A stretch of 64,000 nucleotides of DNA, from the NCBI GenBank assembly GCA_944325315.1, contig CALVAA010000002.1, forward strand, positions 59,016 to 123,015, read 5' to 3'. The notes under the pieces are model-generated. The model was not told the origin of the DNA. It searched no databases and saw only the letters and a program-made list of their open reading frames with translations. Below, piece after piece: positions 1 to 64,000 of the stretch. Position 1 is the stretch's first letter. Every line of letters begins with the position of its first letter. The position numbers and the translations under genes were made by a program. This DNA is from Candidatus Gastranaerophilales bacterium (GTDB taxonomy: Bacteria > Cyanobacteriota > Vampirovibrionia > Gastranaerophilales > Gastranaerophilaceae).

Positions 1-885
1 ATTGCAAATTTAGCTGAACAAATTGCAAAAGAACATAAGCTGGAAGCAAAAGTTTACGATAAAGAACAAATAAAAAGACTCAACATGAATGCATTTTTAG
101 CCGTAGGGCAAGGAAGTGTTAATGAACCGAAATTCATACACTTAACATACACACCCAAAGGCACACCAAGAAAAAAAATAGCACTTGTAGGCAAGGGGGT
201 AACTTTTGATGCAGGCGGAATGAATATAAAACCTGCAGCATCAATGCTTACAATGAAGTCTGATATGTCGGGTGCTGCTTGCATTTTGGGGATAATTCAA
301 GCGATTGCAAAGCTGGAGTCAGATGTAGAATTACACGCAATAAGTGCATTATGCGAAAACATGACATCAGCATCCGCATATAAACAAGGTGATATTTTAA
401 CAGCAATGAACGGCAAAACAATAGAAGTGGATAACACCGATGCCGAAGGAAGAATAACTCTTGCAGATGCACTCAGCTACTGTGACAAACTTAATGTTGA
501 TGAAGTTGTAGATATTGCAACTTTAACAGGGGCTGTTATTGTTTCTTTGGGGCACAATATAACAGGCGTTATGGGAAATAACCAAGAGCAAATTGATAAA
601 TTTATGGAAATTTCGAAATTATCTTGTGAAAATGTATGGCAAATGCCGGTTTTGGATGAATTGAAAGATAATTTAAAATCTGAAATTGCGGACTTTAAAA
701 ATACCGGAGGAAGAAATGCGGGAACATCAACAGCTGCTTGGTTTTTGTCTAACTTTACAAAATCAAAATCATGGATGCATCTGGATATAGCAGGAACAGC
801 ATATCTTGAAAAATCAAATAAAGAAACATTGTCCGGCCCGACAGCTGCTATGACAAGAAGCTTAATAAATTATATACTGTCATAA
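1..885 (+). CDS. pepA: Leucyl aminopeptidase (M17 family), 5' end outside window
   Basis: Cytosolic M17 metallo-aminopeptidase that removes N-terminal residues from peptides using two metal ions. The frame is open from base 1, so the N-terminal regulatory domain is cut off by the window edge; an internal ATG at 85 is not the start. The visible 294 residues form the catalytic domain. The metal-binding stretch KGVTFDAGG is near visible residue 65, and the family signature NTDAEGR is near residue 145. The C-terminus is complete, with the stop at 883-885. The next gene begins 42 bases downstream with its own strong ribosome binding site. Family assignment is secure; the exact substrate is unknown. 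Confidence 0.93.
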   Translation: MANLAEQIAKEHKLEAKVYDKEQIKRLNMNAFLAVGQGSVNEPKFIHLTYTPKGTPRKKIALVGKGVTFDAGGMNIKPAASMLTMKSDMSGAACILGIIQAIAKLESDVELHAISALCENMTSASAYKQGDILTAMNGKTIEVDNTDAEGRITLADALSYCDKLNVDEVVDIATLTGAVIVSLGHNITGVMGNNQEQIDKFMEISKLSCENVWQMPVLDELKDNLKSEIADFKNTGGRNAGTSTAAWFLSNFTKSKSWMHLDIAGTAYLEKSNKETLSGPTAAMTRSLINYILS

Positions 886-10363: not shown

Positions 10364-10529
10364 ACATTTAATTAAAACATTAAAACAAAACATGCTCAAT
10401 ATTATTATTTTAGTGTAATCTTTACCATATTTATTTTTGTAATACTTTATATAATTTATAGAAATATGATAAAAAATTTGCTATAATAATTATATAAGAT
10501 TTGTGTTGTTAAAAAGAAAAGAGATAGCT

Positions 10530-10955
10530 ATGAGAGTACCGCAAATAGGCAATTTGGGCTTTTTTTGTATGACAAAATACAAAAAAAATGTAAGCAGTCA
10601 AAAAATATTAAAAAATCAAAACGATACACTGAGTTTTTCATCAAATGCCAAATATTTAAAAAAATATTCAACACTTCCGGATGAAATAAAAAATATTTTA
10701 AGCCCAAAAGACGCTATTGATATGTTTAAAGACATGGAATATGTTGCACAGGGAAAAATAAAAAGAGATGATATAGGCAGAGGAACAGACTCAAGGGTAT
10801 ATGACAGTCCTTGGCTTGATGATTATTGTTTTATAATTTTAAGCGGCAAAAATGATAATGATACAAAAGTTGTATATTCAACATACACTTTAGGAGATGC
10901 AGTGTGGAGCGACAAGGATGATTCACACATTCAAATACTTAAAAAAGCAAGTTAA
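10530..10955 (+). CDS. Hypothetical protein
   Basis: A 141-residue protein not recognised. The frame could start at a GTG at 10503, but the ATG at 10530 (MRVPQIGNLG) looks more natural, with AGAGA upstream. The middle is lysine- and asparagine-rich; the C-terminal half (about 75-135) looks like a compact folded domain with WLDDYCFIILSGKND and VYSTYTLGDAVW. No signal peptide or membrane segment is seen. It stands alone between sbcD, which is divergent, and the GT-C-like gene 45 bases downstream. Confidence 0.6.
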   Translation: MRVPQIGNLGFFCMTKYKKNVSSQKILKNQNDTLSFSSNAKYLKKYSTLPDEIKNILSPKDAIDMFKDMEYVAQGKIKRDDIGRGTDSRVYDSPWLDDYCFIILSGKNDNDTKVVYSTYTLGDAVWSDKDDSHIQILKKAS

Positions 10956-41282: not shown

Positions 41283-42074
41283 ATGGATCAGACTTATAAT
41301 CTTTTAAATTTATTATCAGCAAAAAACATTGTAATATACATGTTGGTGTTTACAAGACTGACAGGTTTGATGCAATCTGCACCGTTTTTTTCAACAATCC
41401 AAGCTCCAATGGCAACAAGACTGTGGTTTAGCGCAGCCGTTGCTTTTATTTTATATCCTATTGTACAAGTTTCAAAAGCTTACATTATGCCATCCGGAAT
41501 GCCGGAGTTTATTATTCTTATTGCGATGGAATTTTTTGTAGGATATTTAATAGGTTTTAGTGCAAATCTTGTTTTGGAAGGTGCAAGAATGTCCGGAAGT
41601 ATAATTTCCATTCAGACAGGTCTTTCAATTTCTGAGGCACTCGACCCTGTGAGCGGAGTTAATTCAAATGAATTATCAAGAATTTACATTTATCTTGCAA
41701 CATTAATTTTTTTAATGACAGGAGCATACCAAATGCTTTTTGTTGCGGTTTTCAACAGCTTTAGCGCAATACCGATGGGAACTTTTATTGTTTTTGATTC
41801 AAATATTATCCATTCTTTAGTACAACTTTTTGCTCAAATTTTTAAAATTGCCTTTGGTATTGCACTTCCGATTTTTTCAGTGCTTTTAATCTGCGATATA
41901 TTACTCGGATTAATGAGTAAAATGATGCCGCAAATGAATATTTATATGGTTGCACTTCCTGTTAAAATTTATATAGGTTTATTTTTAATACTTGCATTTT
42001 TAAGCGCAACAAATGTGTATCTTCAAGGAGTAATAGAAAACTACATAAAAGCAATCAATATGATATTTACATAA
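41283..42074 (+). CDS. fliR: Flagellar export gate protein FliR
   Basis: The single-copy membrane subunit that closes the FliP5Q4R1 gate. The 263 residues have about six hydrophobic segments. Family-typical stretches are FTRLTGLMQSAPFFS, VGYLIGFSANLVLEGARMSG and SEALDPVSGVNSNELS, with DILLGLMSKMMPQMNIYMV near the C-terminus. It is seven bases from flhB, a gene with which it is fused in some clostridia; here they are separate. Confidence 0.95.
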   Translation: MDQTYNLLNLLSAKNIVIYMLVFTRLTGLMQSAPFFSTIQAPMATRLWFSAAVAFILYPIVQVSKAYIMPSGMPEFIILIAMEFFVGYLIGFSANLVLEGARMSGSIISIQTGLSISEALDPVSGVNSNELSRIYIYLATLIFLMTGAYQMLFVAVFNSFSAIPMGTFIVFDSNIIHSLVQLFAQIFKIAFGIALPIFSVLLICDILLGLMSKMMPQMNIYMVALPVKIYIGLFLILAFLSATNVYLQGVIENYIKAINMIFT

Positions 42075-42081
42075 ATAAGAT

Positions 42082-43158
42082 ATGTCAAACGAACAAAATG
42101 AAAAAACCGAAGAAGCCACCCCCAAGCGAAAAGAAAAAGAACGTGACAGGGGTCATATAGCAAAAAGTCAGGATTTTACCTCATCTTTAATGCTGACATT
42201 TAGTCTTGGGGTAATTTTTGTAATGGGAAATTCCATGTTGGAAAAACTTCAAACAATGCTTTCAACAACGCTGTCCTCACTTAATCCAGCTTTGATATCA
42301 GACAATGATTTTATAGGTGTAACTTCGCCGTATTTCAGGTATTATTGCGAAATCACGGCTCTGTTTTTTGCATTTTTATCAATAGGGGCAGTTTTAATTT
42401 TAAGATTACAAACAGGAGCACTTTTTGCAAAAGAAGTACTTAAGCCAAATTTTCAAAAACTGTCGCCTTCCAGTGCCATTAAAGCTTTAATTGAAAAAAT
42501 TAATGTTTTTAAACCGAAGCAAATGGTAGAGCTTATAAAGTCTGTAGTTAAAACAATAATAGTTGCAATGGCAGGGTTTAATGTTATTCTAAAAAGAAAA
42601 AATGAACTTTTTGGCCTTATCGGAGCAGACCCCGCTACGGGTTTTATGGTTATGGGTTCTGTAATCTTTGAACTTTTGGCAACTATTTGTATTCTTTTAA
42701 TAATAATAGGAGTTATAGACAGACAATATCAAAACTGGGAATACAATAAATCCATAAAAATGTCTAAACAAGAAGTAAAAGACGAAATGAAAAATATAGA
42801 AGGAGACCCAAAAATTAAAGGTAAAATCAGGTCTTTCCAAATGAAAATTTTGCAGCAAAAAATGATGTCAAAAGTAAAAGACGCCGATGTTGTTGTGGTT
42901 AATCCCACGCATTACGCTGTTGCTTTAATGTATGACCCTAAAAAAGTACCGGCACCTGTTGTTGTGGCTAAAGGAGTAGATTTTGTTGCTTTTAAAATCA
43001 GAGAAATTGCAAAAAACAACGGAATTCCTATTGTTGAAAATAAACCTTTAGCAAGAAGCTTGTATAAGCTCGTTGAAATTGATTCAATTATTCCGCAAGA
43101 ACTTTATGTTGCCGTTGCGGAAATTTTACAATACGTATACACACAAAAAGGTAAATAG
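42082..43158 (+). CDS. flhB: Flagellar export switch protein FlhB
   Basis: Controls the switch from rod/hook to filament export. The 358 residues begin EKTEEATPKRKEKERDRGHIAKS, typical of FlhB, and have four membrane segments (about 30-220). The soluble C-terminal domain carries the autocleavage motif N274-P-T-H277 followed by YAVALMYDPKK, so self-cleavage between N274 and P275 is expected. Its ATG lies seven bases after fliR without an obvious strong ribosome binding site, so translation is probably coupled. Confidence 0.96.
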   Translation: MSNEQNEKTEEATPKRKEKERDRGHIAKSQDFTSSLMLTFSLGVIFVMGNSMLEKLQTMLSTTLSSLNPALISDNDFIGVTSPYFRYYCEITALFFAFLSIGAVLILRLQTGALFAKEVLKPNFQKLSPSSAIKALIEKINVFKPKQMVELIKSVVKTIIVAMAGFNVILKRKNELFGLIGADPATGFMVMGSVIFELLATICILLIIIGVIDRQYQNWEYNKSIKMSKQEVKDEMKNIEGDPKIKGKIRSFQMKILQQKMMSKVKDADVVVVNPTHYAVALMYDPKKVPAPVVVAKGVDFVAFKIREIAKNNGIPIVENKPLARSLYKLVEIDSIIPQELYVAVAEILQYVYTQKGK

Positions 43159-43194: not shown

Positions 43195-45297
43195 TTGACA
43201 AAATTAAGGGAATTACTGAAAAATAATGATATTGTTTTGGCGATAGGTCTTGTAACCATTGTTTTAATGATGGTTATACCTATTCCTGCACATCTTTTGG
43301 ATTTGCTTTTAACGTTAAATATCTCTCTTTCTGTTTTAATCCTTTTAGTTTGTTTGTATACAAAAGAACCACTCGAATATTCAAGCTTTCCTACTATTCT
43401 TTTAATTGCAACACTGTTTAGATTAGGGTTGAATGTTACTTCAACAAGATTAATTTTGCTTGAAGCTGACGCAGGGAGCGTTATTGAATCATTCGGACAA
43501 TTTGTAATAGGCGGCAACTACGTTGTCGGTGCTGTTATTTTTGTGATTCTTGTTATCATAAACTTTATGGTAATTACAGGCGGCGCAGGTCGTGTTGCCG
43601 AAGTTAGCGCAAGGTTCACATTAGATGCCATGCCGGGTAAACAATTATCTATAGACGCAGATTTAAACTCAGGGTTAATAGATGAAAACGAAGCGAAAAA
43701 AAGAAGAAAAGCGCTCTTAAGAGAAGCTGATTTCTACGGCACTATGGACGGTGCTTCAAAATTTGTAAAAGGAGATGCCACGGCAGGGATAATAATTACC
43801 GTAATTAATATCGTGGGAGGATTAATAATAGGGATTATCCAGCATAAAATGCCTCCAATGACAGCTCTTTCAACTTATACAATTTTAACTGTCGGGGACG
43901 GATTGGTTTCCCAGATTCCTGCGCTTATTATTTCCACTGCAACAGGATTGATAATTTCCCGTGCATCAGGCTCGGATAATTCTCTTGCTGAAGATATAAG
44001 AAACGAAATGTTTCAAAATCCTAAAGTACTTGGTATAATCAGCGGTCTTTTATTGCTTATGGGCGTAGTTCCGGGTATGCCGACAATACCTTTTTTAACA
44101 ATATCGGCTCTTGCAGGTGGATTCAGTTTTAAAAAATATAAAGAAAAAGTTGAAGCAGAACAAAAAGCGCTTATAGAAGAAAAAGAAGCCAAAAAAGCAG
44201 AAAAACTTGGCAAAAAGAAGAAAAAAGCAACAAGAGAAAGCGTTATGGAGCTTTTAACCGTTGAAACGCTTGAAATTGAAATCGGATACAGATTAGTAAG
44301 TCTCTTGGATGTAGAAAAAGGCGGAGATTTATTAGACAGAATTTCGCAGATAAGGAGACAAACTGCACTTGACCTTGGTATAGTTCTTCCTTCGATTCGT
44401 GTTAGAGATAATTTACAGCTCCCCCCAAACACGTATCAAATTAAATTAAAAGGTGTAACCGTAGAAACCGGGGAAGTTTACCCGGATAGAAGTCTTGCAA
44501 TGAATTCAATGGGCGGAGAGGATGATCCTAATGTTATCGGAATAAGTGCAATAGAGCCTGCTTTTCATTTGCCTGCAATTTGGATACTTGAAAAAGATAA
44601 AGAATACGCAGAAACCGTAGGCTATACCGTAGTTTCGGCAAGTGCCGTTATTTCAACACATTTAACAGAAATAATAAAGAAAAATGCAGGAGAAATTTTA
44701 ACAAGAAGTGATGTTCAGCAATTAATTGATAATTTGAAAAAAGAAGTCAATGAAACTTATGTTAATGATTTGATGAAAGAACTTACAACGGCAGATGTTC
44801 AGCAAATTATGCAAAATTTATTAAAAGAAAGAGTTTCAATAAGGGATTTAAAAACAATTCTCGAGACTATGAGTTTACAGTATAAAATCAATAAAAACTA
44901 TAATTATCTGACAGAACAATGCAGACAGGCACTTGCAAGAAATATATGTAAACAGAACCTTTCAGATACAGGTGAACTTTTAGTAATTACTATGACACAG
45001 GAAGTAGAACAAGAAATTGCAAAAGGCATAAATCCGGATGGCGAAAGCCTAACTTTGAATCCTGATTTTGTTAAAAAACTTATGGACAGCTTAAATACCG
45101 AATTTGAAAATGCAATAAAACAAACGGGTAACCAGCCTGTAATACTTTGTTCTTCACCCATAAGGTTGATTTTTAGAAGATTAATAGAAAGAACTTACCC
45201 ACAAATCACAATTATGTCTTATAATGAAGTAACAAACAACGTTAAAGCTAAATCGGTAGGTATAATCAGAACAAGCTCGAAAACAGCGCCCGTGTAG
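43195..45297 (+). CDS. flhA: Flagellar export protein FlhA
   Basis: The proton-driven export component whose large cytoplasmic domain docks chaperone-substrate complexes. The 700 residues have about eight membrane segments (1-330) with FPTILLIATLFRLGLNVTSTR, GGAGRVAEVSARFTLDAMPGKQLSIDADLNSG (FHIPEP region) and GDGLVSQIPALIIS. A lysine-rich linker near 330-350 leads to the C-terminal domain. The start is TTG at 43195, with GAGG about 13 bases upstream; no ATG lies near the expected N-terminus. All conserved regions are intact. Confidence 0.95.
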   Translation: MTKLRELLKNNDIVLAIGLVTIVLMMVIPIPAHLLDLLLTLNISLSVLILLVCLYTKEPLEYSSFPTILLIATLFRLGLNVTSTRLILLEADAGSVIESFGQFVIGGNYVVGAVIFVILVIINFMVITGGAGRVAEVSARFTLDAMPGKQLSIDADLNSGLIDENEAKKRRKALLREADFYGTMDGASKFVKGDATAGIIITVINIVGGLIIGIIQHKMPPMTALSTYTILTVGDGLVSQIPALIISTATGLIISRASGSDNSLAEDIRNEMFQNPKVLGIISGLLLLMGVVPGMPTIPFLTISALAGGFSFKKYKEKVEAEQKALIEEKEAKKAEKLGKKKKKATRESVMELLTVETLEIEIGYRLVSLLDVEKGGDLLDRISQIRRQTALDLGIVLPSIRVRDNLQLPPNTYQIKLKGVTVETGEVYPDRSLAMNSMGGEDDPNVIGISAIEPAFHLPAIWILEKDKEYAETVGYTVVSASAVISTHLTEIIKKNAGEILTRSDVQQLIDNLKKEVNETYVNDLMKELTTADVQQIMQNLLKERVSIRDLKTILETMSLQYKINKNYNYLTEQCRQALARNICKQNLSDTGELLVITMTQEVEQEIAKGINPDGESLTLNPDFVKKLMDSLNTEFENAIKQTGNQPVILCSSPIRLIFRRLIERTYPQITIMSYNEVTNNVKAKSVGIIRTSSKTAPV

Positions 45298-55418: not shown

Positions 55419-55889
55419 ATGAAAAAAATTTTAACTTTAGCACTGTGTCTTACAATTGCATCATTCTCTTTTGCATATGCAAATGAGAACCCGCACAAAA
55501 CAGACCAAAAAAGACCAACAAACGAAAGATTTAAAAAAGAAAGACAAAATTTTAACTATCAAAACCGTAACAACAAAAAGCAAATAAAAGAACGCTACAG
55601 TAAAGACAGACAAGAACAAAACTTTAAACAAAACCATAAAAACAGCTACAACAGAGAAAAACAAAGATACAACAAATATCAAAACCATAAAAACAGCTAC
55701 AACAGCGAAAAACAAAGATACAACAAATATCAAAACCATAAAAACAGCTACAGTAAAAACAGACATGACCAAAATTTAAAAAGAAATCCAAAAGGAAAAA
55801 TAACCGGTCAGGATAAATTTAAACATAAAGTAAAAAATAACAAAAAAACAGCCAAAAAAGCAAAACACAATAAAAACAAAAAAAGATAA
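55419..55889 (+). CDS. Exported strongly basic repeat protein
   Basis: A 156-residue protein with a signal peptide (residues 1-21, ending FAYA) from the ATG at 55419, which has AGAAGGA upstream; nine more codons are open further upstream. The mature chain is almost entirely Lys, Asn, Arg, Gln and Tyr. It contains tandem 17-residue units (YNKYQNHKNSYNSEKQR pattern, about 2.3 copies, 51-bp DNA period), and its charge is very positive. A disordered cationic periplasmic or surface protein, perhaps binding polyanions such as LPS or DNA, is inference. It has its own terminator. Confidence 0.68.
   Translation: MKKILTLALCLTIASFSFAYANENPHKTDQKRPTNERFKKERQNFNYQNRNNKKQIKERYSKDRQEQNFKQNHKNSYNREKQRYNKYQNHKNSYNSEKQRYNKYQNHKNSYSKNRHDQNLKRNPKGKITGQDKFKHKVKNNKKTAKKAKHNKNKKR
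55629..55770 (+). repeat. 51-bp tandem repeat in the basic exported protein gene
   Basis: CAAAACCATAAAAACAGCTA recurs at 55629, 55680 and 55731, a period of 51 bases (17 codons). The first two units differ by very few bases; the third is partial. Confidence 0.85.
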
Positions 55890-60467: not shown

Positions 60468-60851
60468 TTATTCCAAAAGAAGTTTTTCAGCTTGAGAAAG
60501 ATAAAATTCCATAGCTTTTGAATCATGCTTACTTGCTACGATTTGAGCTATGGAATTTTTTAATTTACAATTTCTCTTCTCAAGCATTTCAATTTTCTCC
60601 TTTGCTTTTAGAATTATTGCCCTGTTTTTCTTAACAATTTCCTTTGAAAAAACCATAATAAACCCGAGACGGTTTTTTACTTTGTATTTGTTAAAAAGCT
60701 GACATATCTTATATGAAACGCCGGACTTTGAACAGTTTAACCTTTTTGCTATTTGCTCGTTTGTAAGACCCAAAAAAATATATTTAATCAACAATACTTT
60801 TTCTTTTAACAGCTCATTATCAATAGTTTTCTGCATTTTTCTTAATTCCAT
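60468..60851 (-). CDS. LuxR-type HTH transcriptional regulator (short)
   Basis: A 127-residue protein with a GerE/LuxR DNA-binding domain near the N-terminus (about 17-65: LIKYIFLGLTNEQIAKRLNCSKSGVSYKI, then NKYKVKNRLGFI). A basic coiled-coil-like helix (KKNRAIILKAKEKIEMLEKR) follows. There is no receiver or ligand domain, so it is a single-domain regulator. The start is the ATG at 60851; a TTG lies one codon upstream. It is divergent from an XRE regulator across about 120 bases, so both may be controlled from there. Confidence 0.82.
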   Translation of the reverse strand: MELRKMQKTIDNELLKEKVLLIKYIFLGLTNEQIAKRLNCSKSGVSYKICQLFNKYKVKNRLGFIMVFSKEIVKKNRAIILKAKEKIEMLEKRNCKLKNSIAQIVASKHDSKAMEFYLSQAEKLLLE

Positions 60852-60970
60852 CAAAAAAAAGTTGTAAAGTTTCGATTTATTGTGTTATAATAACATTGAC
60901 TTATATGTAAATAAGAATACATTAATAATTTACATTTGTCAAGTATTGGTTTATTAATTTTAGGTTAACT

Positions 60971-61267
60971 ATGAAAAACATTGGAAAAAGAGTAAAACAA
61001 ATCAGAGAACTGCTCAAGATTTCACAAGAAACTTTGGCAAACGAATTAGGTATTACAAAACAAGCAATATCCAACATTGAACATTCAAAATGTTATCCGA
61101 ATATTGCCCTCTTGCACAAACTATACACTGATTACGGTGTAAATATAAACTATATCATAACAGGCAGAGGTGATATATATGTTGATAACAACAGTTCAAA
61201 ACAAAGCTTAAAAAAATCTCTGCTTAAAGAAGTTGAGCACTTTCTTGATTCAAGAGGAATAAAATAA
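60971..61267 (+). CDS. XRE-family HTH regulator
   Basis: A 98-residue DNA-binding protein with the Cro/C1-type helix-turn-helix in residues 4-57 (GKRVKQIRELLKISQETLAN, then ITKQAISNIEHSKCYPNI). A short tail ending in a helix follows (LKKSLLKEVEHFLDSRG). It resembles phage-type repressors, but nothing phage-like surrounds it. The stop is 107 bases before the first acidic repeat protein gene on the same strand, so it may regulate that locus. No strong ribosome binding site is visible before the ATG. Confidence 0.85.
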   Translation: MKNIGKRVKQIRELLKISQETLANELGITKQAISNIEHSKCYPNIALLHKLYTDYGVNINYIITGRGDIYVDNNSSKQSLKKSLLKEVEHFLDSRGIK

Positions 61268-61374
61268 TTTTTAAGTTTTGTAAATTTTTTTAAAAGCAAA
61301 ATTAAAAAACCTAAAGAATTTTTCAATAACTCCGTATTCACTAAATAAATGCGAAACTGATAAGGAGTAGAAAA

Positions 61375-63222
61375 ATGTCTGATGGTGTAAATTTTATTGA
61401 CAATTTTAAAAATAAAATATTCAATTTTACCCAAACCCCGATGACAAGTTTAATCGGTAATGATGCTGCGAACGAAAATATTTTCTCTCAAGCATCAGTG
61501 CCCACGCCAACGGCATCACAACCGGTGACTTTTGATGCTTTTGCTTCGGGGCTGGAACAATACAATATCAATCAAAGCGATGCTCAAACCATATATAATA
61601 TTTTAAACATTGATAGCAGTGATGAAATAGACGAGAGCGAATATAATCTTGCACTGAAAATATTCGGAAAAGACACAGATAACGACGGAATAAATGATAC
61701 TCTTAGCGCAATGTCAGTGACGCACAATGCGGTTGATTATGCATCAGGAGCAAATAAAGAAGAAAAACAAAAAGAAATCGATGATGCAATACAAGAATAT
61801 ATCGATAATGCAAAACTCGATTCCGATGCGGTTGAAAATACAGAAGATGAAGATAAAGTAACAGACGGCCTGTATGCAAGGGATGAAAGCGAAGCAGAAA
61901 CAGAAGAAAAACTAAGTTATAATGCAATACCGTTTGATATAAACGAAAAGACCGGAGGGGAAACCGAAGCGCTGGATTTAAGTAAAGTTACACGTCTAAT
62001 TGATACCGGAAACAGCGTTCCTATAGAAACATCGAATCAATCAGAAGATAGCAAACAGACCGAAACAAGCGAAAACAAAATATCAGAAGATGCAACCGGG
62101 AAAACCGAAGAATCCGAAAGCGAAAAAGCTAGCGAAAATCAGGAAGAAAGCAGCGAAACAAACAATGCTTCAACCACGTCTAATGATGGAAGCACAGCTG
62201 ACAGTGAAAAAAGCGATCTTCAATCTGCAATAGAAGCTCTTAGTGCCGGGGTAGCTACAGAAGAACAAAAAGTGCTTTTAGAAGGAATGGGAATAACCGA
62301 AGGAAATATTGAATCATCAATAGAAGAAGCAAATAACACTGCGCAACAAAGCACCGAAGACAAAGAACAAACAGTAACAGAAGGATTGCATCAAGCCGAC
62401 AGCGAAGGAAATTCTGAAACAAACGACAATCAAAACGAACAAGACTTCTTAAATTCAATGATACACGCATATGAAAATGGAGAAATTGGCGAAGAAGAAG
62501 TAGCACAAATGCTTGAAGGGTACGATATTAATCCGGAAGATATTTATACTGCAGCCGGAAATGAAGCTGTATCCAATAGCACACAAAATAATCAAACCGA
62601 AGGAAATGTAACAGAAGGATTGCATCAAGCCGACAGCGAAGGAAATTCTGAAACAAACGACAATCAAAACGAACAAGACTTCTTAAATTCAATGATACAC
62701 GCATATGAAAATGGAGAAATTGGCGAAGAAGAAGTAGCACAAATGCTTGAAGGGTACGATATTAATCCGGAAGATATTTATACTGCAGCCGGAAATGAAG
62801 CTGTATCCAATGGCACACAAAATAATCAAACCGAAGGAAATGTAACAGAAGGATTGCATCAAGCCGACAGCGAAGAAGCTGTAAGCGAAGATGGTACGGA
62901 AGTTAATAACAGCAATCAAGATAATTCAGACACATTCTTAAGCCAAATTGCGGCAAATAATCCTAAAATTCAACAGGATGAAAACGGATACTACTTTGAA
63001 GTTGAAAGCTGGAATTCGGACGGTACAGACAGTTTGGATTGCGTATCAAGAATTTTGAGAAATGTATATGGAATTGAATACACAGGCGAAGGTGAAAGCC
63101 AAAAAGTATATGAAGCTTTGGCTCAAGCAAATCCGGGAGCATTTGAAGCCGGAAATCCGGATATGGTATATCAAGGAGCAAGAGTAAATTTAATAGATAT
63201 ATCAGACATACTTAAAGAATAG
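61375..63222 (+). CDS. Large acidic repeat protein with EF-hand-like N-terminal module and LysM-like C-terminus
   Basis: A 615-residue, very acidic protein with no signal peptide or membrane segment. AAGGAG before the ATG is strong. The N-terminal module (about 45-125) has NINQSDAQTIYNILNIDSSD and a calcium-loop-like DTDNDGINDT. A Glu/Ser/Thr/Asn low-complexity stretch follows (about 150-280), then a helical unit (SDLQSAIEALSAGVATEEQ, about 285-320). Two almost identical 78-residue repeats come next (about 334-489), and a C-terminal domain ends NPDMVYQGARVNLIDI, which resembles the end of a LysM or FimV-type module. The next gene starts 10 bases later and is a paralogue. Function unknown; not recognised as a named family. 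Confidence 0.72.
   Translation: MSDGVNFIDNFKNKIFNFTQTPMTSLIGNDAANENIFSQASVPTPTASQPVTFDAFASGLEQYNINQSDAQTIYNILNIDSSDEIDESEYNLALKIFGKDTDNDGINDTLSAMSVTHNAVDYASGANKEEKQKEIDDAIQEYIDNAKLDSDAVENTEDEDKVTDGLYARDESEAETEEKLSYNAIPFDINEKTGGETEALDLSKVTRLIDTGNSVPIETSNQSEDSKQTETSENKISEDATGKTEESESEKASENQEESSETNNASTTSNDGSTADSEKSDLQSAIEALSAGVATEEQKVLLEGMGITEGNIESSIEEANNTAQQSTEDKEQTVTEGLHQADSEGNSETNDNQNEQDFLNSMIHAYENGEIGEEEVAQMLEGYDINPEDIYTAAGNEAVSNSTQNNQTEGNVTEGLHQADSEGNSETNDNQNEQDFLNSMIHAYENGEIGEEEVAQMLEGYDINPEDIYTAAGNEAVSNGTQNNQTEGNVTEGLHQADSEEAVSEDGTEVNNSNQDNSDTFLSQIAANNPKIQQDENGYYFEVESWNSDGTDSLDCVSRILRNVYGIEYTGEGESQKVYEALAQANPGAFEAGNPDMVYQGARVNLIDISDILKE
62374..62875 (+). repeat. 234-bp tandem duplication (2 full copies plus start of a third)
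   Basis: Copies begin at 62374, 62608 and 62842, a period of exactly 234 bases (78 codons). The first two copies appear identical except around the AGC/GGC codon near 62579/62813 and the junction codons. The third copy breaks off after about 34 bases. It is in frame and encodes TEGLHQADSEGNSETNDNQN, then EQDFLNSMIHAYENGEIGEE and further residues. Confidence 0.9.
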
Positions 63223-63232
63223 AAGGCAAAAA

Positions 63233-64000
63233 ATGACTAGCGGAGCAAATTTTGACAACTTAAAAACACTTTTTCAAACAATCAAAGGCACAGCCGGAGC
63301 GCCCGTACAAAATGCTACGGATAATTTTGCATCAATACAACAAAACCAGATAGAATCAGGCACTGTAAGTCAAAACAGCAGCTCAATTACATTTGATTCG
63401 ATTTTTAGTGAAAATAATTCTGTAACTAAAGAAGAATATGATGAGTATGTCAAAAACAATAAAGTGGGAATATATGATGCTACAAACATTTATGCACTAT
63501 TAAACAGAAACCAAGACGATACACTGGAATACTGGGAATACGAAGCATACAGAAAAGCTTTTAACCAAAGTGAATTATCAATGGATGCCATAAGTACACA
63601 CATTTTACACAATGACGAACAAGAACTTATGGATATATATAATCAAGCATACGAAGAAGCATATAACGAAGCTCATTCTGAAGAAAAATACGATAATACA
63701 GGCTCTCCGGATGATGCAGCTCTACCTAATGAAACTTTGCCTGAAGATACTGAAGGTTTAGACGAACAAAAAGATACTGAAGGTTTAGACGAACAAAATA
63801 GTGAAAACAGCACTACAACAGATACAACAGGCGATATCAACAAAGATGCAACAGAAGAGCAACGTCAATTACAAAAAGATACTGAAGGTTTAGACAAACA
63901 AAAAGATACTGAAGGTTTAGACGAACAAAAAGATACTGAAGGTTCAAGCGAACAAAAAGATACTGAAGGTTTAGACGAACAAAATAGTGAAAACAGCACT
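63233..64000 (+). CDS. Acidic repeat protein, paralogue of the preceding gene, cut by window edge
   Basis: An open frame from ATG 63233 (AGAAGG upstream) runs 256 codons to the window end without a stop. The N-terminus MTSGANFDNLKTLFQT parallels MSDGVNFIDNFKNKIF of the previous gene. A matching module follows: SITFDSIFSENNSV, then YDATNIYALLNRNQDDTLEY against SDAQTIYNILNIDSSDEIDE, so the two are paralogues. From about residue 170 it is acidic nonapeptide repeats (DTEGLDEQK). No signal peptide. The C-terminus is outside the window. Confidence 0.75.
   Translation, partial: MTSGANFDNLKTLFQTIKGTAGAPVQNATDNFASIQQNQIESGTVSQNSSSITFDSIFSENNSVTKEEYDEYVKNNKVGIYDATNIYALLNRNQDDTLEYWEYEAYRKAFNQSELSMDAISTHILHNDEQELMDIYNQAYEEAYNEAHSEEKYDNTGSPDDAALPNETLPEDTEGLDEQKDTEGLDEQNSENSTTTDTTGDINKDATEEQRQLQKDTEGLDKQKDTEGLDEQKDTEGSSEQKDTEGLDEQNSENST
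63746..64000 (+). repeat. 27-bp nonapeptide repeats within a 186-bp higher-order unit
   Basis: GATACTGAAGGTTTAGACGA recurs at 63746, 63773, 63878, 63905, 63932 (variant) and 63959, mostly 27 bases apart. A 42-base segment starting at 63773 is repeated exactly at 63959, 186 bases later, so a longer unit probably starts again at the window edge. Confidence 0.85.

Follow-up and report, generated by a model that had tools for sequence, protein, structure and literature searches.

Surface proteins that vary in length through intragenic tandem repeats are a recognised kind, and the substrates of type I secretion of the RTX (repeats in toxin) type share an acidic, leaderless and calcium-linked physical profile. 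Here we describe a gene with features of both, gene A, from a member of the Gastranaerophilales, a poorly known and largely uncultured gut lineage. It lies near the end of a stretch of 64,000 nucleotides, analysed as a whole and referred to below as the window (G000:C2:59016-123015, where G000 is the host genome; the end of the window is also the end of the contig). Gene A is made of ordinary parts that form an unusual whole: it is real, recently duplicated and variable between alleles, and it belongs to a leaderless family that is not named in the libraries searched. We tentatively read its product as an extracellular protein that is attached to the wall, can be adjusted in length and reaches the outside without a Sec signal, an interpretation that we hold to be quite possible, if somewhat short of probable. 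Coordinates of all features are collected in Table 1.

Repeat units and alleles of gene A

Tandem Repeats Finder reported a period of 234 with 2.1 copies over positions 62374-62875 (99% matches, score 997). The two complete units differ at a single nucleotide of 234 (A at 62578, G in the second copy), which replaces Ser with Gly; this bears out the proposal, made in an earlier note on this DNA, of a duplication that is recent or has been homogenised by recombination. Each unit is opened by an identical 34-nt motif (62374-62407 and 62608-62641), and a third copy follows the last unit. The peptide that it encodes, VTEGLHQADSE, has a looser relative, VTDGLYARDESE, at residue 162, and the adjoining gene B also contains copies of the DTEGL type. 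The identical motifs are a likely substrate for the gain and loss of units, whose number would change by recombination or slippage between them.

Residues 274-333 resemble the unit as well. Aligned without the common motif, they score 48 against it, compared with 28.1 +/- 5.4 for shuffled sequences, 5 of 2000 of which reach 48; when the motif that follows is included, identity is 41% over 66 columns. Three short helices are predicted at each of residues 274-324, 351-396 and 430-473 in the full-length model, the overall confidence of which is low. The alignment, the shuffles and the three-helix model thus give supporting, though modest, evidence that this segment is a diverged upstream copy of the unit, as had been suggested earlier.

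When some 5.8 billion proteins were searched, four records reached E 0.001 or better, one of them gene A itself. Two units are found in P0001 (gene A, 615 aa) and P0003 (568 aa), and one in P0002 (537 aa) and P0004 (490 aa), while a 47-residue stretch is present in P0001 and P0002 and absent from P0003 and P0004. As all four combinations of unit number and indel are seen, either the unit number has changed more than once or alleles have recombined; the expectation that copy number may vary between strains agrees with these alleles, among which the number is not uniform. Within both two-unit alleles the copies are unlike each other (Ser/Gly in one, Thr/Ala in the other), an argument against the doubling of a contig. 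The opposite error, in which two units would be the rule and the one-unit alleles assembly collapses, would mean that the length variation is not real, and several points weigh in this direction: units of 234 nt with one difference are longer than usual short reads, the clusters of P0002 and P0004 are represented by contigs of 6.5 kb or less, and the adjoining gene B does break the assembly. However, each one-unit allele has its own substitution (TEEN instead of TEGN at the unit junction in P0002, GKEE instead of GEEE inside the unit in P0004), and the one-or-two-unit pattern recurs in a distant pair of relatives, L049 (398 aa) and P0035 (356 aa), which share 353 identical residues and stand one 42-residue unit apart. 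Collapse is therefore possible but, in our estimate, quite improbable.

Predicted folds and the protein family

The encoded protein has an isoelectric point (pI) of 4.05, with 22.2% Asp and Glu, 4.4% Lys and Arg, and one Cys (computed composition). Its hydropathy maxima are low (0.36 for 12 residues within residues 1-40, 0.57 for 19 residues over the whole protein), so that by hydropathy there is neither a signal peptide nor a membrane segment; the earlier note had also stated that a signal peptide is missing. The absence of a Sec leader, judged by hydropathy only, is a feature shared with substrates of flagellar-type type III secretion systems. A Pfam scan of the whole protein gave five weak rows, all far below cut-off and with no functional pointer. 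No matches were obtained by tblastn against phage records, and a scan of genome contigs with the protein gave 71 pattern stretches, none of which was confirmed. Promoter and terminator scans across 60850-63400 gave site counts not above those of shuffled sequence.

The C-terminus is predicted by AlphaFold as a LysM-like fold with a mean predicted local distance difference test score (pLDDT) of 92. The strand-helix-helix-strand order of LysM is present, and LysM structures are among the structural matches of this domain. Cys556 (63040-63042), the sole cysteine, is invariant in an alignment of 27 domains, where C37, N44 and N67 (first-row numbering) are the invariant positions, and sits within a DCxSR segment, which we take to occupy the place of the LysM GDT-L-W/S stretch. 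The LysM family PF01476 gave no rows for the whole protein (E limit 10) or for its C-terminal domain (E limit 1); of 14 domains from relatives, 3 were matched within the latter limit, the best of them with E 0.0008. When the domain profile was compared with the sequences of solved structures, the best match, at E 0.054, was SafA, a LysM-bearing spore protein. The N-terminal region is predicted to contain EF-hand-like helices, modelled with confidence below that of the C-terminus, and its top structural rows were MICU1/2, calerythrin and calmodulin (VIA-align). There were no EF-hand rows for gene A in Pfam; the relative L049 passes the EF-hand_7 cut-off (31.1 against 30). Between the two parts, pLDDT is below 50 over residues 146-279. 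The calcium-loop-like module and LysM-like end named in the earlier note therefore stand as predicted folds, the first of them less confidently, without support from Pfam, and structure prediction was clear for the C-terminus and of low confidence for the helices of the units. Gene A remains below Pfam cut-offs throughout, with no clear match to a described family.

The gene A family was searched for with a 14-row domain alignment. Of the 28 genomes of the genus, 13 carry the domain; across the taxonomic family it is present in 18 genomes out of 146 (7 of 41 genera). Thirty-one of the 36 distinct places of the family were examined, some with open reading frames (ORFs) cut by contig or locus ends; L054, L059 and L061 had no ORF above threshold, and L068 and L069 were found later. 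The pI does not exceed 5.1 in 30 of these members. A hydrophobic stretch (mean 1.6 or more) is present at the N-terminus of none of the 31, whereas six (L026, L027, L029, L040, L055 and L062) have an internal one (19-residue mean 1.6 or more). Tandem repeats occur in 22 of the 31 members as against 2 of 200 control genes, the controls being taken from the window and 22 loci with a minimum ORF length of 200 aa, their lengths not matched to the family, and the members being mutually related, so that these are not independent events. A pI below 5.2 was found in 17 controls and an N-terminal hydrophobic stretch in 59. The two repeat-bearing controls, L028:739-3030 (117-bp repeat, 9.8 copies) and L028:3120-6695 (105-bp repeat, 2.4 copies), are large genes outside the family. 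The tails of the family differ, with Pro/Thr and Gly-Pro-Thr arrays in L045-L048 and L060.

These features bear on a reading in which gene A encodes a cytoplasmic calcium-binding or calcium-buffering protein that is not exported, its LysM-like domain binding a target other than the wall, as in the cytoplasmic Kbp. However, repeat-length variation and tails of the Pro/Thr type, both present among the relatives, are unusual in cytoplasmic proteins. Moreover, L055 has a hydrophobic stretch ahead of its LysM-like part, which would thus lie across the membrane. We regard a cytoplasmic role as doubtful, although it deserves serious consideration.

Some relatives carry a further module. Annexin repeats (PF00191) are above cut-off in L026 and L027, behind the LysM-like domain, and were seen more widely in proteins of the lineage (also L029 and P0034) behind EF-hand-like or LysM-like parts; P0034 consists mostly of them. 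A search of the genus gave matches in 7 of 28 genomes, above cut-off in five: inside a family gene in G017, G019 and G022, and elsewhere in G005 and G012. The matches did not include G020, from which L026 comes, and PF00191 gave no rows in the gene A protein and no matches in the search of the host genome. A paper on bacterial annexins (PMC3894181) names other phyla, and a word search of it found no occurrence of cyanobacteri, LysM or EF-hand. No work joining Melainabacteria and LysM was found in open-licence PubMed Central (PMC), nor, among the matches listed, any on Gastranaerophilales that deals with annexin, EF-hand or tandem repeats.

Proposed mechanism and export route

We return to the extracellular, wall-attached reading. 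The LysM-like end would hold peptidoglycan, the EF-hand-like region would respond to calcium, and the three-helix units would space the two ends apart. The least certain step is the export route, for which several systems were considered.

First, the window encodes a flagellin and a flagellar-class FlhA, and export through this gate had been suggested in the earlier note. FlhA occurs in two classes, at about 870 bits (flagellar) and about 720 bits, which, like the classes of FliP, were assigned by bit score alone. Among the 28 genomes of the genus, the 870-bit class is full length in 23 and missing from G006, G010 and G027, and the other two, G009 and G026, have fragments of it; the 720-bit class is present in all (partial in G009 and G026). 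One FliP class is likewise found in all 28 and is the only one in G006, G010 and G027, where flagellin matches number three, none and one, respectively. The wider sample gave a full-length 870-bit FlhA in 58 of 146 genomes; the remaining 88 have a full-length 720-bit FlhA (81 genomes), only fragments (6) or none (1). Ten of the 18 domain-bearing genomes do not have the full-length flagellar class, which is present in the other eight, and G010 has two family genes with one FliP only and no flagellin match. The route through the window gate is weakened by these counts.

Second, a flagellar-type gate with the 720-bit FlhA and its FliP (together with FliE, FliF, FliH and partners) is the most likely candidate for the route. 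It is preferred since it is present in all 28 genomes of the genus, including G010, while the window gate is missing from several family-bearing genomes. The presence of a gate so widespread cannot prove a link to the family. In G027, the second-class FlhA is followed 1.8 kb downstream by a family gene, and no other such case was seen. Export of the family by the second gate is, overall, an unlikely though workable proposal. A broader version, about equally unlikely, is that this machine has been kept for secretion, not swimming, and exports lineage-specific, leaderless, fast-lengthening proteins with EF-hand, LysM and annexin parts, including the product of gene A. By title and the start of the abstract, no work on type III secretion in Gastranaerophilales was found in open-licence PMC.

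Several side observations concern these gates and leaderless ORFs. The gene set of the second gate (L074, L075 and L167) is also found on contigs C8 and C5 of G010 and C3 and C2 of G027. Most of the genus genomes listed also have a third ORF of the FlhA family, which is shorter (as a rule about 486 aa) and matches family positions 321-656 only, e.g., G000:C21:14198-15238 and G010:C2:149023-150060. By eye, a short FKG/FEG/SFS-like motif recurs in several leaderless ORFs at some 20-45 residues from the N-terminus and might be a signal common to them.

Third, the protein might be a type I substrate of the RTX type, exported by an ATP-binding cassette (ABC) transporter through a C-terminal signal. 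Its pI, single Cys, calcium-like loops and missing leader fit the profile of such substrates, but the HlyB model TIGR01846 is above cut-off in only 3 of 28 genomes of the genus, G007, G013 and G015, all of which lie outside the domain-bearing 13, and the best match in the host genome reaches 306.8 bits, where the cut-off is 725.55. The GGxGxD motif is absent from gene A and was seen in a single family ORF out of 37, a count that includes redundant loci. HlyB-type export is thus unsupported; weaker ABC-exporter matches in all 28 genomes leave room for other type I systems, and we consider the type I route very unlikely. Finally, the closest LysM-like folds are held by baseplate proteins of contractile injection systems, of which gene A could encode a part or cargo. 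However, the sheath family PF04984 was matched in a single genome of the genus (G026), and 12 of the 13 domain-bearing genomes have no match, which leaves this origin unsupported and barely credible.

Neighbouring genes and comparison with known systems

Gene B, a tandem paralogue of gene A, starts 10 bp past its stop codon. Its 27-bp repeats (KDTEGLDEQ), nested in a longer repeat, occur at 63744-64000 and at L022:2-220, and contigs C2 and C9 both break within repeats of this type. The start of C9 (L022:2-1669) has the same kind of repeat followed by a C-terminal part with a gene A-type domain; gene B therefore very likely continues there, judging by sequence. A database search for its alleles gave one record, P0036 (470 aa), which does not have the repeat part, so unit numbers could not be compared for gene B. 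The single family genes of G023 (833 aa) and G011 (325 aa) both lie between helix-turn-helix and panD-like genes (named by eye), which indicates that the location is kept while the length and tail of the gene vary. Elsewhere in the window, an ORF of 165 aa that begins in a Sec-like manner contains a tandem repeat of 51 bp (55629-55752, 2.4 copies, 98% matches).

Table 1. Positions of gene A, its parts, neighbouring genes and export-gate loci (window coordinates unless a contig or locus is given)
Feature	Position	Residues	Strand	Basis or content
Gene A, acidic leaderless repeat protein	61375-63222		+	intact ORF, ATG start, 615 aa; exact database match P0001
EF-hand-like helix-loop-helix region (predicted)	61465-61746	31-124	+	acidic loops near residues 76-90 and 97-113
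Acidic linker, predicted disordered	61810-62193	146-273	+	Asp + Glu 28%; site of the 47-residue indel
Putative diverged copy, three-helix unit	62194-62373	274-333	+	alignment, shuffles, model
Unit 1, 78 codons	62374-62607		+	Tandem Repeats Finder and direct comparison
Unit 2, 78 codons	62608-62841		+	1 nt unlike unit 1
Third copy of 34-nt motif (VTEGLHQADSE)	62842-62875		+	34 nt identical at lag 234
LysM-like domain (predicted)	62929-63219	519-615	+	predicted fold, structural matches, family alignment
Gene B, tandem paralogue	63233-64000		+	N-terminus related to gene A (local alignment), 27-bp repeats; runs off contig
98-aa ORF upstream of gene A	60971-61267		+	helix-turn-helix regulator by eye
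Flagellar-class FlhA, window gate	43195-45297		+	PF00771, 872 bits
Second gate locus, G000	C5:44403-50996			SLT, FliE, FliF, 317-aa ORF, FliH, FlhA
Second gate, FliP part, G000	C5:26627-30271			16 kb away; FliP and FliO-, FliQ-, FliR-, FliM-like ORFs by eye
ORFs with FKG/FEG/SFS-like motif	10503-10955; G000:C5:36714-38225, 41545-42234; L084:14189-14860

If extracellular, gene A would be a surface module that alters its length in steps of 78 residues, like host- or phage-facing proteins elsewhere. The family offers a handle on how Gastranaerophilales export proteins without Sec leaders, and on why most of them retain partial flagellar gene sets.

Compared with RTX proteins, gene A is similarly acidic, leaderless and calcium-linked but has no GGxGxD repeats, and the family-bearing genomes have no HlyB-class transporter above cut-off. 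Bacterial annexins share PF00191 with the relatives L026 and L027 and not with gene A itself. EF-hand proteins (PF13499, PF00036) resemble the model in two tentatively predicted helix-loop-helix segments with acidic loops, although gene A is below Pfam detection and its calcium binding is a prediction. With LysM proteins (PF01476) it shares the predicted order of strands and helices and an Asn conserved within the latter half of the domain; it differs in having no Pfam match and no Sec leader, and its wall binding is likewise predicted. Length-variable surface proteins with intragenic repeats, a subject of PMC2639597 and PMC2996958, differ in that gene A has no Sec leader or known anchor and combines EF-hand-like with LysM-like architecture. 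As in gene A, such proteins have in-frame, near-identical tandem units in allele-dependent number.
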